Source: Nesterenkonia lacusekhoensis
Lineage (GTDB): Bacteria > Actinomycetota > Actinomycetes > Actinomycetales > Micrococcaceae
Reading direction: 5' to 3'
DNA: 64,000 nt
Assembly: GCF_017876395.1 (NCBI RefSeq)
Contig: NZ_JAGINX010000001.1
Coordinates: 2,418,001 to 2,482,000 of the forward strand
Under the pieces are notes generated by a model, which was not told where the DNA came from, made no database searches, and saw only the letters and a list, made by a program, of their open reading frames with translations. Shown piece after piece: positions 44,188-63,240 of the stretch. Both the position numbers and the translations under genes were made by a program. Each line of letters begins with the position of its first letter. The first letter of the stretch is position 1.

Positions 44188-44511
44188 TCACTTCCAACGC
44201 ATCGTCATGAAGAAGCCCACCATCGCAATGCCGAAGCCGATGCCCACGTTCCAGTTGCCGACGGCGCGGATCGGGATCAGGCCGCTGCTGATATAGAAGA
44301 CGATGATCCACAGCAGGCCGAGCAGCAGCAGTCCGAACATCGTGGCGCGGTACCACGTAGGAAGACTGTCATCTTCGAGCTCGAGGTCGTCGAGGCTGAC
44401 CGGGTCGGCGTCGCTCAGCGGGGACGCGGTCCTCTCCTCCTGCGCGGAGGAACGGTCCTTCCGGCTGCGCTTATTGCTCCCGCGGTTCCTGCGATTCTTG
44501 GACTCTGGCAC
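44188..44511 (-). CDS. crgA: Cell division protein CrgA
   Basis: A 107-residue protein with a basic N-terminus (PESKNRRNRGSNKRSRKDRSS) and two transmembrane helices (LPTWYRATMFGLLLLGLLWIIV-type and WNVGIGFGIAMVGFFMTMRWK-type). CrgA couples FtsZ/PBP at the septum in actinobacteria. The GTG at 44511 starts the protein where homologues begin. The relatively long acidic stretch SLDDLELEDD precedes the first helix. Convergent with pknB. Confidence 0.9.
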   Translation of the reverse strand: MPESKNRRNRGSNKRSRKDRSSAQEERTASPLSDADPVSLDDLELEDDSLPTWYRATMFGLLLLGLLWIIVFYISSGLIPIRAVGNWNVGIGFGIAMVGFFMTMRWK

Positions 44512-49179: not shown

Positions 49180-49310
49180 GCGTGTCCTCCGAATCAGGAT
49201 CGTTTGCTCTCCTTAGCCTACGTCTTATGCCCCCTCACCTGCTATGGCACGCCGAGCTGTATTGCATCGGAGCTCTCCACCAGCGGCGTCGGGGGTTCTG
49301 GTGAGGCTGT

Positions 49311-49412
49311 TCCCGCCCGACGTCGGATCCCGCCCGGCGTCGGATCCCGCCCGGCGTCGGATCCCGCCCGGCGTCGGATCCCGCCCGGCGTCGCATCGTG
49401 CCCGGCGTCGGA
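49311..49412. repeat. 17-bp tandem repeat, six units
   Basis: Six head-to-tail copies of TCCCGCCCGGCGTCGGA, the first and the last two slightly changed. It ends a few bases before the ribosome-binding region of ppiA, inside the 259-nt gap between the hypothetical gene and ppiA, so it replaces or displaces part of the ppiA promoter. There are no spacers, so it is not CRISPR. Confidence 0.92.
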
Positions 49413-49438
49413 GGAGGTCTCGTGGAAGAATGGCAGCT

Positions 49439-49972
49439 ATGACTGCTATCGCAACGCATCAGGCAACGATCAAGACCAACCAGGGCGACATCGTCGTCGA
49501 GCTCTACGGCAACCACGCTCCCAAGACTGTGGAGAACTTCGTGGGCCTGGCCACCGGCTCCATCACCTGGAAGCACCCGGAGACCGGCGAGGAGAAGGTG
49601 AACACTCCCCTCTACGACGGCACGGTCTTCCACCGCATCATCAAGGACTTCATGATCCAGGGCGGCGACCCGCTCGGCCTGGGCGTGGGCGGCCCCGGCT
49701 ACCAGTTCGGCGACGAGATCCACCCCGAGCTGGACTTCACCGAGCCGCATAAGCTCGCGATGGCCAACGCCGGCCCGGGCACCAACGGTTCCCAGTTCTT
49801 CATCACCTCGGTGCCCACCACCTGGCTGCAGGGCAAGCACACCATCTTCGGTGCGGTGAAGGACGAGGAGTCCAAGAAGGTCGTGGACGCGCTGAACTCG
49901 GTCAAGACCGACATGCGCGACCGTCCCGCAGAGGACGTGGTCATCTCGACCATCGAGATCACCGAGCTGTGA
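49439..49972 (+). CDS. ppiA: Cytoplasmic peptidyl-prolyl cis-trans isomerase (cyclophilin)
   Basis: A 177-residue cyclophilin: HAPKTVENFVGLA, FHRIIKDFMIQGGDP, NAGPGTNGSQFFIT and HTIFGAV give the active-site Arg, Gln and Phe. No signal peptide. The ATG at 49439 has GGAAGA 9 nt upstream; ATG 49430 is in frame. Catalyses proline isomerisation in folding. Ten nt separate it from the rhomboid gene. Confidence 0.92.
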   Translation: MTAIATHQATIKTNQGDIVVELYGNHAPKTVENFVGLATGSITWKHPETGEEKVNTPLYDGTVFHRIIKDFMIQGGDPLGLGVGGPGYQFGDEIHPELDFTEPHKLAMANAGPGTNGSQFFITSVPTTWLQGKHTIFGAVKDEESKKVVDALNSVKTDMRDRPAEDVVISTIEITEL

Positions 49973-49982
49973 CACTCCCTCT

Positions 49983-50852
49983 GTGAACACCTGCGCGAAC
50001 CACCCGGACAGGCCGGCCCACATCCAGTGCCAACGCTGTGATCGGCCGGTCTGTCCGCAGTGTCAGCAGCAGGCCGCAGTGGGCTTCCACTGCCCCCAAT
50101 GCGTCCAGGAGGCCCGACGACGCCGGCCCGCCTCCCGCACGCAGTTCGGCGCACCGGTCCGCGCCGACCAGCGGCCGCTGGTCACCTGGACCGTGATCGG
50201 ACTCTGCGTGGTGCTCTATGCGCTGCAGATCCTCCCCCAGTACCTGGGCGCCGCCGGTGCACGGCTGCCCGATCTCACGCAATACTTCTCCTACGCACCA
50301 CTGCACACCTCTGAGCACCCGCTCTACCCCGTGGAGCTCTGGCGCATGCTCACCTCAGCGCTGGTGCATTCACCGTCGAACGCCGCACACCTGCTCTTCA
50401 ACATGGTGGCGCTGTGGTTCATCGGACGTGTGCTGGAGCCGGCGATCGGTCGGTGGCGCTACATCGCCCTGCTGGTGCTCTCTGCCTTGGGCGGCTCTGT
50501 GGCGGTCATGTATCTCAGCGACCCGACGGTCCCCACGCTGGGCGCCTCCGGAGCGGTGTTCGGGCTCTTCGGCGCCCTGTTCGTCCTGCTGCGTGCCTCC
50601 GGCAGCCAGAGCGGCGGCGTGATCGTCCTGGTGGGCATCAACATGCTGATCAGCTTCACCGTGCCGAACATCTCCTGGCAGGGCCACCTCGGCGGGCTCG
50701 TGGTCGGCCTGCTGTGCGCACTGGTCATCGCGAAGGTCCCCCGCGGGAAGAACCGCTCTCTGCTGCAGGGCCTCGGCCTGGGCGCCGTCTTCCTGGCCCT
50801 GGTCGCGCTGATCGCAGTGGGCATCCCCCTGGTGGACATCTACGGCTCCTGA
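49983..50852 (+). CDS. Rhomboid intramembrane serine protease with N-terminal zinc-finger-like region
   Basis: A 289-residue protein. The first 45 residues hold four CxxC-type pairs (CANH, CQRC, CPQC, CPQC), a B-box-like zinc finger. The rhomboid core has six helices, with the catalytic Ser in GASGAVFGLFG and His in QGHLGGLVVG. GTG start. This fused form recurs next to ppiA in actinobacteria; its substrates are unknown. Confidence 0.9.
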   Translation: MNTCANHPDRPAHIQCQRCDRPVCPQCQQQAAVGFHCPQCVQEARRRRPASRTQFGAPVRADQRPLVTWTVIGLCVVLYALQILPQYLGAAGARLPDLTQYFSYAPLHTSEHPLYPVELWRMLTSALVHSPSNAAHLLFNMVALWFIGRVLEPAIGRWRYIALLVLSALGGSVAVMYLSDPTVPTLGASGAVFGLFGALFVLLRASGSQSGGVIVLVGINMLISFTVPNISWQGHLGGLVVGLLCALVIAKVPRGKNRSLLQGLGLGAVFLALVALIAVGIPLVDIYGS

Positions 50853-50973
50853 ACGGGTCTGGGCGATGGGCCGATCTGAACTATGAAGACTGAGCGCTGA
50901 AGACTGAGCGCTGAGTGCCTCTCCCCCGCCATCCTGAGTCTCTGACGCCGCAGCCTTGGGCCTCTGTCACCGC

Positions 50974-51042
50974 AGCCTTGATCAGATACGCGCGGTATTC
51001 CGCTGAAATCCAGGCCGATAGCGCGCGCATCTGATCAAGCCT
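50974..51042. repeat. 69-bp hairpin element
   Basis: Arms 50974-50998 and 51018-51042 pair over 25 bp with three mismatches; core CTTGATCAGAT is shared. Not followed by a T-run. Confidence 0.7.
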
Positions 51043-51321
51043 TCGCTCCTGCACCACGGGCAACAGACCTCGCCGTGGAGGCTTCAGCAGACTCCGGTGC
51101 CTGGCGAGCCCATAGCCGCCTTCCAGGCGACGGTATCTGCGGACGCCCGTCCGCACTCTTCCACGTCGCCGCCGGACGACCAGCCCTCCCATCTGCTGTG
51201 CAGTCTCCTCCTCTGACCCCTCTCGGCCACAGGGCCGGGCCGCGGCGACGGTGATCGCCCTGGCTCAGCGCTGGGGGCAAGTCATTGGTCCGCAGGAGCC
51301 CCGTACCGTTTTCCCCAGGGT

Positions 51322-51447
51322 TTATCCACAGTGTGGATAAACAACACATGTGTGTTTCCCAAGGTCAGAGCGATTTCCACAGGTAACTGTGGACTTAAGG
51401 GGGTTCTGGGGATAACAAGGTGTGTAGAACTGTGGAGCTTATTCACA
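51322..51447. other. Cluster of DnaA boxes away from dnaA
   Basis: Exact TTATNCACA boxes: TTATCCACA at 51322-51330 (+), its inverse at 51332-51340 (-), and TTATTCACA at 51439-51447 (+). Degenerate boxes (TTTCCACA near 51374, TGTGGACTT at 51388, TGTGGAG at 51431) lie between. The first two form a back-to-back palindrome. The A/T-richer patch ACACATGTGTG follows. It is about 10 kb from oriC and could be a second origin part, a DnaA reservoir, or a regulatory site. Confidence 0.6.
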
Positions 51448-51672: not shown

Positions 51673-51745
51673 CGTTGTTTGGGCGAAGAGTTGCCGTCTC
51701 AGGCCCCAGAAGCCGCTGAGACGGCAACTCTTCGCCCAAACAACG
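51673..51745. repeat. Perfect 29-bp inverted repeat with 15-nt loop
   Basis: Arms 51673-51701 (CGTTGTTTGGGCGAAGAGTT..) and 51717-51745 are exact reverse complements. The architecture is like the 28-bp element at 5783 but the sequence is unrelated. No T-run follows, and no gene ends near it. Confidence 0.88.
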
Positions 51746-51957: not shown

Positions 51958-51996
51958 AAAGAAGGACCTGCTCCACGGGGGAGCAGGTCCTTCTTT
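51958..51996 (-). terminator. Terminator of tRNA-Ala
   Basis: A 17-bp perfect stem (AAAGAAGGACCTGCTCC) with a 5-nt loop; it begins 9 nt after the tRNA 3' end. Confidence 0.85.
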
Positions 51997-53059: not shown

Positions 53060-55734
<2,675 letters not shown>

Positions 55735-60897: not shown

Positions 60898-61623
60898 TGA
60901 TCTCCCTTTCTCCGGCGTAGCCCATAGTGCCTGCTAAGTGATCCCTGTTGAAAGTCAAGCTTCTGAGGCGTCGTGTCGAGGCCCGAGCTTACCGGTGCAG
61001 CAGGCACGATGCGAGCCGGTCGTTCAAGGAACGATCGAGGGTGGGCACCAGATGTGCCTGCCGAGGCTCGTCTGGGAGGAATATCTGGGGTCCGGCCGGT
61101 GGAGCGCGTACGGGGCGCGGGCTTTCTTGTTATCTGTCAGATGTATGAGGGGTAAGGAGGTAGAAGTGTTAACAAGTGCTGTGGATTCTGTGGATAACCG
61201 GGTCTTGGGCGCTGATGCCGGGATTTTCGCTGTGCAGTCTTAAGTGAAGTGTCTCGGTATGCGCTGTGGGCTGTCCGTGGAGAGAAGAACCCCGTCGTTT
61301 CGCGGATTCCTCAGGATCCGCTCCGTTCTCCCCAAGCTCCGCGGCTCCGTCCACCGCCTTCTCCACCGGGTTATCCACAGGTGTTAACAGCGACGTGGAA
61401 AAAGTTCACCGCCGCTTGTGGAAATGTGGGGAAAACTGTGGAATTCGATGCTGAGAGCGGTCTCGGATCGTGCTGATGCTGGGGAACTACATGTGTGTGA
61501 CTTGTGGGGAACTGAGTTTTCCACAGCTGTCAGCCATGAGCTTGCACAGGTCTGTCCCCAGGCTGTATCGCACGTGAGGCCGTCAGAGAGTCTGTCGAGG
61601 CTGGTCCCTTCGACGTCGGTCCG
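60898..61623. other. oriC: dnaN-dnaA intergenic region with DnaA boxes
   Basis: A 726-nt non-coding region. Exact boxes: TTATCCACA at 61371-61379 (+) and its inverse at 61189-61197 (-). Near matches include TTTTCCACA (61517-61525), TGTGGAATT (61437), TGTGGATTC (61180) and TTGTGGAAA (61416). Two TGTTAACA palindromes (61167-61174, 61382-61389) accompany them. Position between dnaA and dnaN and box density mark it as the chromosome origin. Confidence 0.85.
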
Positions 61624-63240
61624 TCAGCGCTGCTGCTTGATCTTGTTGGTGAGCTCGGTGACCTGGTTGAAGACCGCGCGGCGCTCGGCCATGAGTTCGC
61701 GGATCTTGCGTTCGGCATAGATGACCGTGGTGTGGTCGCGGCCGCCGAGGGCCTGGCCGATCTTCGGCAACGACATCTCTGTGAGCTCACGCAGCAGGTA
61801 CATGGCGATCTGGCGGGCGGTGACCAGGGTCCGGTTGCGGGACTTGGACATCAGGTCATCCACTGTGAAGTTGTAATACTCCGCGGTGGCATCGATGATC
61901 TGGTCCGCAGTGATCTCCTGCGCGTTGTCATCGGAGATGAGATCCCGCATGACGTGCTCAGCCAGCTGCAGGTCCACCTCCTGCTTGTTCAGCGAGGCAT
62001 AGGCGGTCACACGGATGAGCGCGCCCTCCAGCTCCCGGATGTTGGTGGAGATCTTGGAAGCGATGTACTCCAGCACATCGTCCGGGCAGGAGAAGTTCTC
62101 CGCTGTGGCCTTCTTCCGCAGGATCGCGATGCGCGTCTCGAGGTCCGGCGGCTGGATGTCGGTGATCAGACCCCATTCGAAGCGGGACCGCAGACGCTTC
62201 TCGAAGCCGGAGAGCTGCTTGGGCGGCAGGTCCGAGGTGATCACGACCTGCTTGTTGTTGTTGTAGAGCGTGTTGAAGGTGTGGAAGAACTCCTCCACCG
62301 TGCGCTCTTTGTCCGCCAGGAACTGGATGTCGTCCAGCAGCAGCACGTCCACGTTGCGGTAGAGGTGCTTGAAGCTGGCGCCCTCGTCGTCGCGGATGGA
62401 GTTGATGAAGTCATTGGTGAACTCTTCTGAGTTCACGTACCGCACGCGGATCCCGCTGTAGAGGCGCTGAGCATAGTGCCCGATCGCGTGGAGCAGGTGG
62501 GTCTTGCCCAGTCCGGAGTCCCCGTAGATGAACAGCGGGTTGTAGGCCTTGGCGGGCGCTTCCGCCACGGCATTCGCCGCGGCATGGGCGAAGCGGTTCG
62601 AGGAACCGATCACGAACGTCTCGAAGGTGTAGCGAGGATTCAGCCGCGAGGTCTCGGAGAGGCCGGGGCCCTCGGCCTCCGTCGGGTCCGGGACAGTGGG
62701 CCGCGGGCGCATCTCCTCGCGGTTGAACCGAGCGCTGTAGTCCTCCTGCACGGGCTCGGGCCGGACCGGCTCCTGTCGGGCCGGTTCATGCCGGCTCAGA
62801 TCGGGCCGGTTCAGATCCGGGCGGGACGCGGCCGGGGCCTCATGCGGCGTCGGGCCGGGATACACATCATCGACGGCTGTGGACGAGGCCGAGCTGGCCG
62901 AAGGAGCCGTGGCCGCAGTCGATGTGCCGGCGGACTGCTCGGTGCTGGCCTGCTGCTTCTCGGCCAGATCGGGGTCGATCACATAGGCGCAGAGGATGTC
63001 GCGGCCGAAGACTGACCGCAGCGCTTCGCCGAGCTGGTGCTGAAGTGTGGACTGCATGGTCTGGCGGACCCGCTCGCTGGGAACGGCCAGCAGAAGAGTG
63101 TCGCCGATGAGCTGATCACCCTGCGGAACGGTCCGCCCGACGTCGGTGAGTTTGAGCCCGTTCACACCGTGACGGTCACGCAGTTCGGTCTGCACCTGCT
63201 GCCATTTCTGCAGCACGTTGAGCTCTGACTCAGCAGGCAC
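61624..63240 (-). CDS. dnaA: Chromosomal replication initiator DnaA
   Basis: About 538 residues. Domain I ([13 protein letters not shown]..), a long Ala/Ser/Pro/Glu-rich domain II with [14 protein letters not shown]-type repeats, the AAA+ domain (Walker [10 protein letters not shown], Walker B LLLDDIQF, sensor TSDLPPKQL) and domain IV with [15 protein letters not shown]. The GTG at 63240 is chosen for the preceding GAGGGGAG; a TTG at 63270 would add ten residues without a ribosome-binding site. The gene reads away from rpmH. Confidence 0.96.

Follow-up and report, generated by a model that had tools for sequence, protein, structure and literature searches.

The DnaA-box cluster and its surroundings

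The window, i.e. the whole 64,000-nt stretch of the Nesterenkonia lacusekhoensis contig NZ_JAGINX010000001.1 that was analysed (positions 2,418,001 to 2,482,000), contains a cluster of predicted DnaA boxes in a 1.15 kb gap, with a rhomboid gene on one side and tRNA-Ala on the other. The features of the locus and of the presumed origin are given below in window coordinates.

44191–44400 (the stretch scanned), − strand: crgA (Pfam PF06781), the second gene that usually flanks the element; here it lies about 7 kb away
49244–49972, + strand: cyclophilin-type peptidyl-prolyl isomerase gene (Pfam PF00160)
49983–50852, + strand: rhomboid gene (Pfam PF01694), the element's usual neighbour
51309–51317, + strand: core box 1, TTTTCCCCA, a degenerate copy where many relatives have TTATCCACA
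51322–51330, + strand: core box 2, exact TTATCCACA; most conserved box of the genus
51332–51340, − strand: core box 3, exact TTATCCACA; faces box 2 head-to-head across 1 bp
51342–51358, + strand: accessory palindrome, putative factor site, consensus TNACANNNNTGTNATTC; perfect 10-mer ACACATGTGT here, the rest degenerate
51359–51372, + strand: genus-conserved tract, consensus CCCAGGTCAGAGCG
51373–51381, + strand: degenerate box ATTTCCACA, offset from box 1 by 64 bp (start to start)
51388–51396, − strand: degenerate box, TGTGGACTT as + strand
51407–51415, − strand: one-mismatch box TTATCCCCA, present too in the closest relative (L043)
51421–51429, − strand: one-mismatch box TTCTACACA, from the box scan
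51439–51447, + strand: exact box TTATTCACA, from the box scan
60898–61624, no strand: dnaA–dnaN gap, presumed oriC, apart from the element
61484–61500, − strand: copy of the accessory palindrome in oriC with one mismatch, TCACACACATGTAGTTC

The three exact TTATNCACA boxes (core boxes 2 and 3 and the box at 51439–51447) and the two one-mismatch boxes were located by a box scan of the window, and the three two-mismatch boxes (51309–51317, 51373–51381 and 51388–51396), whose spacings are conserved in the genus, were found by reading the sequence. The exact boxes span 126 bp and lie 9.8 kb away from the dnaA–dnaN oriC. The first two of them form a palindrome with 1 base in between, and the core has the order box, 4 nt, box, 1 nt, inverted box. 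Scan and reading thus confirmed what the earlier note had described at this site, namely three exact boxes, two of them back to back as a palindrome, accompanied by degenerate ones.

Allowing no more than one mismatch, 21 boxes were counted in the window, versus 6.2 (sd 2.2) in shuffled sequences. The genome holds 26 exact TTATNCACA boxes, 25 of them on the main contig. When these 25 were placed uniformly 20,000 times, three boxes fell within 126 bp in a single placement and nine boxes within 52 kb in none, which agrees with the earlier judgement that the grouping is unlikely to be due to chance. Nine exact boxes are in fact gathered in four places over about 50 kb: three in the cluster, two between dnaA and dnaN, one upstream of dnaA (accompanied by one near box), and three in another group about 4 kb from dnaB (G000:C1:2519608–2519840, corresponding to L022 7609–7841).

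A plasmid search with the sequence of the cluster gap gave no match, Rfam detected the two tRNAs and nothing else, and a 227-aa open reading frame spanning the gap had no Pfam match. Several inverted repeats were observed nearby: an imperfect 28-bp repeat at 50971–51045 (86% complementary), a perfect 30-bp repeat with a 13-nt loop at 51673–51745, which recurs in the genome, with 16 matching places counting its own, and therefore belongs to a palindromic repeat family, and a perfect 17-bp hairpin at 51958–51996 directly 3′ of tRNA-Ala, where transcription of the two tRNAs probably terminates. Elsewhere in the genome, a second DnaB-type helicase is encoded on the small contig C2 (G000:C2:34610–35356), perhaps a plasmid or prophage.

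Conservation in the genus, family and class

Within Nesterenkonia, at least three boxes (at most one mismatch) per 200 bp were present within 1.5 kb downstream of the rhomboid gene in 26/27 loci, and the maximum upstream of this gene was two boxes per 200 bp at the same threshold. Three genomes (65–82% completeness) gave no rhomboid match and did not enter this count, from which L069, the second fragment of G016, was also dropped. The neighbours of the cluster in the genus are the cyclophilin and rhomboid genes. With the rhomboid gene read forward, the core is oriented as in the window in 6/27 loci and oppositely in the rest where readable. In 24 loci the layout was fixed as box, 4 bases, box, 1 base and inverted box, followed by the palindrome, the CCCCAGGTCAG tract and further boxes; L044, L049 and L067, in which the core was found poorly or not at all, were left out, two of them having their boxes close to where the stretch ends. 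Conservation of a box cluster is not peculiar to the rhomboid site, since the dnaB-side group is conserved as well, with at least three boxes either upstream or past the far end of a luciferase-like monooxygenase gene in 25/29 genus loci.

For the wider comparison, zones were defined as the 500 bp immediately 3′ of rhomboid and of crgA, which make up 6.1% of the sequence in the 31 non-family loci. The family set comprised 87 loci (the best 80 of 571, four of them Nesterenkonia, plus seven more). In this set, the densest 300-bp box window was inside the zones in 67/87 loci, with a 7.1-fold enrichment; three control patterns gave enrichments of 3.5, 2.0 and 0.65, and their densest windows fell into the zones in 41, 36 and 10 of 87 loci. 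Outside the family, 33 loci of the class were fetched (14/22 same-order and 19/56 same-class genomes, mostly the better matches), and L236 and L242, which contain neither rhomboid nor crgA, were dropped. In 25 of the remaining 31 loci the densest window was located in the zones (13.9-fold enrichment), 20 of these windows holding at least three boxes and five holding one or two; in six loci no cluster was found at the rhomboid/crgA ends. The reversed box pattern was enriched 4.1-fold and two scrambled patterns 1.7- and 0.65-fold (densest window in zone in 11, 9 and 4 of 31 loci), the roughly fourfold value of the reversed pattern being a consequence of the zones being gene-poor. Conservation of the boxes in relatives, which had been named beforehand as the support to look for, therefore extends far beyond the genus.

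The commonest gene order is cyclophilin, rhomboid, cluster and crgA, with rhomboid and crgA convergent; crgA was detected in 118/140 loci. Boxes were observed after the rhomboid gene in three large-genome members of the class, and at the crgA end in three loci in which crgA is distant from rhomboid (L252, L254 and L258). In two further loci without a rhomboid gene in the fetched stretch (L260 and L261), core and palindrome follow the cyclophilin gene at a distance of about 0.5 kb and lie beside crgA. The gene order of these two loci looks mycobacterial, with Rv0009 and Rv0011c taken by us to be the cyclophilin gene and crgA, respectively.

A less biased test was performed with a sequence-only profile, built from 20 Micrococcaceae cores and searched in 60 class genomes; matches were accepted up to an E of 1 and include weak ones, and other weak ones are lost to the filters. 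The top match in the own genome was the cluster locus (E 3.8e-15), followed by the opposite strand of the same place (0.027) and oriC (0.19 and 0.20). All 86 family loci matched the profile at E up to 10, the weakest of which do not align as the same core. The non-family result refers to 53 genomes, i.e. the 60 minus the own genome, one family member and five genomes without usable cyclophilin match (G086, G090, G095, G111 and G129). The best match was at most 10 kb from the cyclophilin gene in 39/53, within 3 kb in 33. In the other 14 it was on another contig (11 genomes) or 104, 118 and 476 kb off (three genomes), and four of these 14 (G094, G098, G099 and G116) have a second, weaker match at most 10 kb from the cyclophilin gene. 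Three large genomes of one genus have matches (G099:C1:4406102, G136:C1:4919884 and G119:C3:144671) whose distances from this gene are about 118, 104 and 99 kb, respectively, and which perhaps mark a further DnaA-box cluster. We are confident that the cluster, in terms of its predicted boxes, is a real and conserved DnaA-box element distinct from the origin.

The accessory palindrome

Box 3 is followed, at a distance of one base, by a second conserved motif, TTACANNNNTGTAA and then TTC, of which the cluster in the window holds a degenerate copy. In the strict form TTACANNNNTGTARTTC, this palindrome had 35 matches in 40 genomes, and the same pattern written backward had none. Comparison of positions assigned 23 of the 35 matches to the cluster locus, coming from 22/25 family genomes outside Nesterenkonia, and 12 to other places. 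At the cluster locus of the 15 Nesterenkonia genomes the strict form was absent (0/15), and variants of it occur there. In the non-family class loci, TNACANNNNTGTNATTC with at most one mismatch matched 34 times among 31 loci; 32 of these matches, from 16 loci, were in the zone, and 15 loci lacked the palindrome. The reversed TNACANNNNTGTNATTC pattern gave one match in the 31 loci, outside the zone. These counts are to be read with the provisos that the pattern was drawn up after alignments of some of the same loci and that both strands of one palindrome may count twice.

The palindrome recurs in the dnaA–dnaN gap of Nesterenkonia, where it was detected in 16/28 loci at one mismatch and in 23/28 at two mismatches, the own genome included; in the other family members, only 2/24 loci had it at one mismatch. 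The reversed palindrome in the dnaA–dnaN gaps of all 52 loci gave no match at one mismatch and one at two mismatches (L194 and L195, fragments of G016, were not counted). A search with only the palindrome formed by the head-to-head box pair was positive in 20/58 genomes, including the own, and two of the loci found, L001 and L020, are distant from the cyclophilin gene of the respective genome. L020, a locus of a family member whose cyclophilin gene is on a different contig, carries the head-to-head box pair twice (1501–1519 and 1876–1894, one mismatch each, 375 bp apart).

Possible function of the element

DnaA binding has been mapped in vitro for M. tuberculosis and in vivo for M. smegmatis (PMC7738170). 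Rv0010c–Rv0011c, a top-five DnaA-binding region of mycobacteria that holds a box cluster and a palindrome, is described there as being of unknown function and without obvious counterpart in other species; a DnaA peak is thereby published at the mycobacterial site syntenic to the cluster. Variants of this region had longer cells, as was the case with dnaA variants, at an unchanged initiation rate (PMC7738170).

We consider it somewhat probable that the cluster is a conserved, non-origin DnaA-control element and the Nesterenkonia counterpart of Rv0010c–Rv0011c, with DARS-like activation as the favoured mode of action. DnaA would bind the core, in which one box stands head-to-head against two tandem boxes, and a putative partner protein would bind the palindrome one base from the core; a variant of this palindrome is present in oriC of most Nesterenkonia too. 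The complex of DnaA and partner might then act on DnaA itself and so tune initiation. As to the sign of such an effect, activation is favoured over passive titration because the boxes have the order of DARS and because cells became elongated, like those of dnaA mutants, when the mycobacterial site was altered. Two points speak against a DARS-like action: the box starts of the cluster (0/10/23) differ from those of E. coli DARS1 and DARS2 (0/14/26, measured on the sequences), and the mycobacterial finding that cells lengthened while the initiation rate stayed the same (PMC7738170) does not agree with the simple loss of an activator. The control-element reading as a whole is also weakened by the genomes or loci in which the best profile match is elsewhere (14/53), the cluster is missing from its usual place (6/31) or the palindrome is lacking (15/31), and by the degenerate palindrome of the window.

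The main rival, rather unlikely in our estimation, is a passive or datA-like sink, in which the boxes would titrate DnaA or speed ATP hydrolysis and thereby hold back re-initiation; being near oriC, such a cluster would be copied early. Arthrobacter-type loci contain up to 24 boxes (at most one mismatch) per 12.5 kb, as expected for a sink, and Streptomyces clusters are said to restrain initiation. Titration is also among the possibilities named by the authors for the mycobacterial site (PMC7738170). A sink requires neither a fixed head-to-head core nor a palindrome, yet both are conserved, and the mycobacterial elongation was likened by the authors to decreased-activity dnaA variants of other bacteria (PMC7738170). 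The essential boxes of datA, moreover, all point in one direction (PMC5742627), which those of the cluster do not. The datA-like role proposed in the earlier note fits in the wide sense of DnaA regulation outside the origin, but not in the direction of the boxes as reported for datA.

Improbable, in our view, is a chromosome-organising site, at which DnaA and the palindrome partner would fold or position the origin region with DnaA activity unchanged. The proximity to the origin, the independence of orientation, the usual location between convergent genes and the sharing of the palindrome by cluster and oriC in most Nesterenkonia are in line with it, and the unchanged initiation rate of the mycobacterial mutants would fit as well (PMC7738170). 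Against it, the palindrome is not known to be the site of an organising protein.

A DnaA-controlled transcription switch for a neighbour (the tRNAs, gyrA, rhomboid or crgA) was assigned a very low probability. DnaA acts as a transcription factor elsewhere, and in this strain the last box and the start of tRNA-Ala are about 560 bp apart. The cluster, however, is usually located where rhomboid and crgA converge, its orientation flips among species, and tRNA-Ala lies about 3 kb from it in 9/17 other genus loci (outside the fetched stretch in 6), so that the tRNA/gyrA switch put forward in the earlier note is not supported. Expression of Rv0010c and Rv0011c, furthermore, was unaltered in mycobacterial dnaA mutants (PMC7738170).

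The dnaA–dnaN gap has two exact boxes, at 61189 (−) and 61371 (+), just as had been read before, and at least three boxes with at most one mismatch in 52/52 loci (the own and 51 relatives); the number of exact boxes per gap reaches four and is zero in L182 and L217, and the G+C content of the gap ranges over 0.51–0.64. Over the 384 kb examined, cumulative GC skew reaches its minimum at window position 53604, nearer to the cluster than to dnaA–dnaN, and the third-position skew of gyrA (−0.155), gyrB (−0.208) and dnaN (−0.278) falls on the side of lagging-strand genes, as expected if replication started at the cluster, which is not the case for recF (−0.009); leading and lagging genes differ by 0.03–0.07 with an sd of about 0.11, which is too noisy for four genes. 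That the cluster is one part of a split origin, as suggested earlier, or an alternative origin is scarcely credible despite this skew and its local AT-richness (best 50-mer 58% versus 62% in oriC), as the dnaA–dnaN gap carries its own boxes in every locus and a separation of 10 kb far exceeds the roughly 2 kb between the halves of bipartite origins (PMC4285127).

Returning to the DnaA-control element, we tentatively extend this reading to the class: actinomycetes may share an ancient DnaA-control locus, in which a head-to-head core is fused to the site of a dedicated partner protein, with this partner binding oriC too in some lineages. The cryptic mycobacterial site would then be a member, and the palindrome that is reportedly a recurrent target of alteration there may be the partner's site and not DnaA boxes. 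Replication timing in actinobacteria is poorly known, and a control locus widely conserved in the class, with a core and a partner site, would offer a direct entry point and harmless species for studying it. The element would also provide a counterpart for the mycobacterial DnaA site reported to have none in other species.

Comparison with known systems

A literature search, in which subscription journals were mostly not covered, returned no prior report of the class-wide element or of the palindrome and none of DnaA binding in Micrococcaceae. The Streptomyces DnaA-box clusters H69, H24 and D78, reportedly described in 2006 by Smulczyk-Krawczyszyn as lying near oriC and restraining initiation, are similar in being actinobacterial box clusters near the origin.

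E. coli datA resembles the cluster as a non-coding group of DnaA boxes near oriC and differs from it in having its essential boxes in one direction, whereas the two exact boxes of the cluster are head-to-head. With DARS1 and DARS2 of E. coli, the cluster shares a three-box core, one box being opposed to the other two (in DARS, boxes II and III run against box I, which makes a head-to-head contact; PMC5742627), and the presence of one or more extra sites beside the core. It deviates in box spacing, in having the palindrome in place of IHF/Fis sites and in its location within 10 kb of oriC. As it has the box order of DARS but not the spacing, it was not classed as DARS. Further sources cited beside this comparison are PMC4585315, PMC4245941, PMC5835720, PMC13270200, PMC9579286 and PMC3411110.

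In place, the element corresponds to Rv0010c–Rv0011c. In the class sample the element is found by the cyclophilin gene and crgA, as is the mycobacterial site, and in the window it lies beside the cyclophilin–rhomboid pair with crgA about 7 kb off. Both sites have boxes and a palindrome, the mycobacterial one being known here from its published description. DnaA binding was shown in mycobacteria, whereas the Nesterenkonia sites are predicted, and a three-box core with a separate accessory palindrome is not described for the mycobacterial site in the excerpts of PMC7738170. The likeness also applies to the arrangement as a whole: the box groups of Nesterenkonia at oriC, upstream of dnaA, at the rhomboid gene and near dnaB match four of the five mycobacterial DnaA regions by place, and the dnaB-side cluster may correspond to the mycobacterial site upstream of dnaB.
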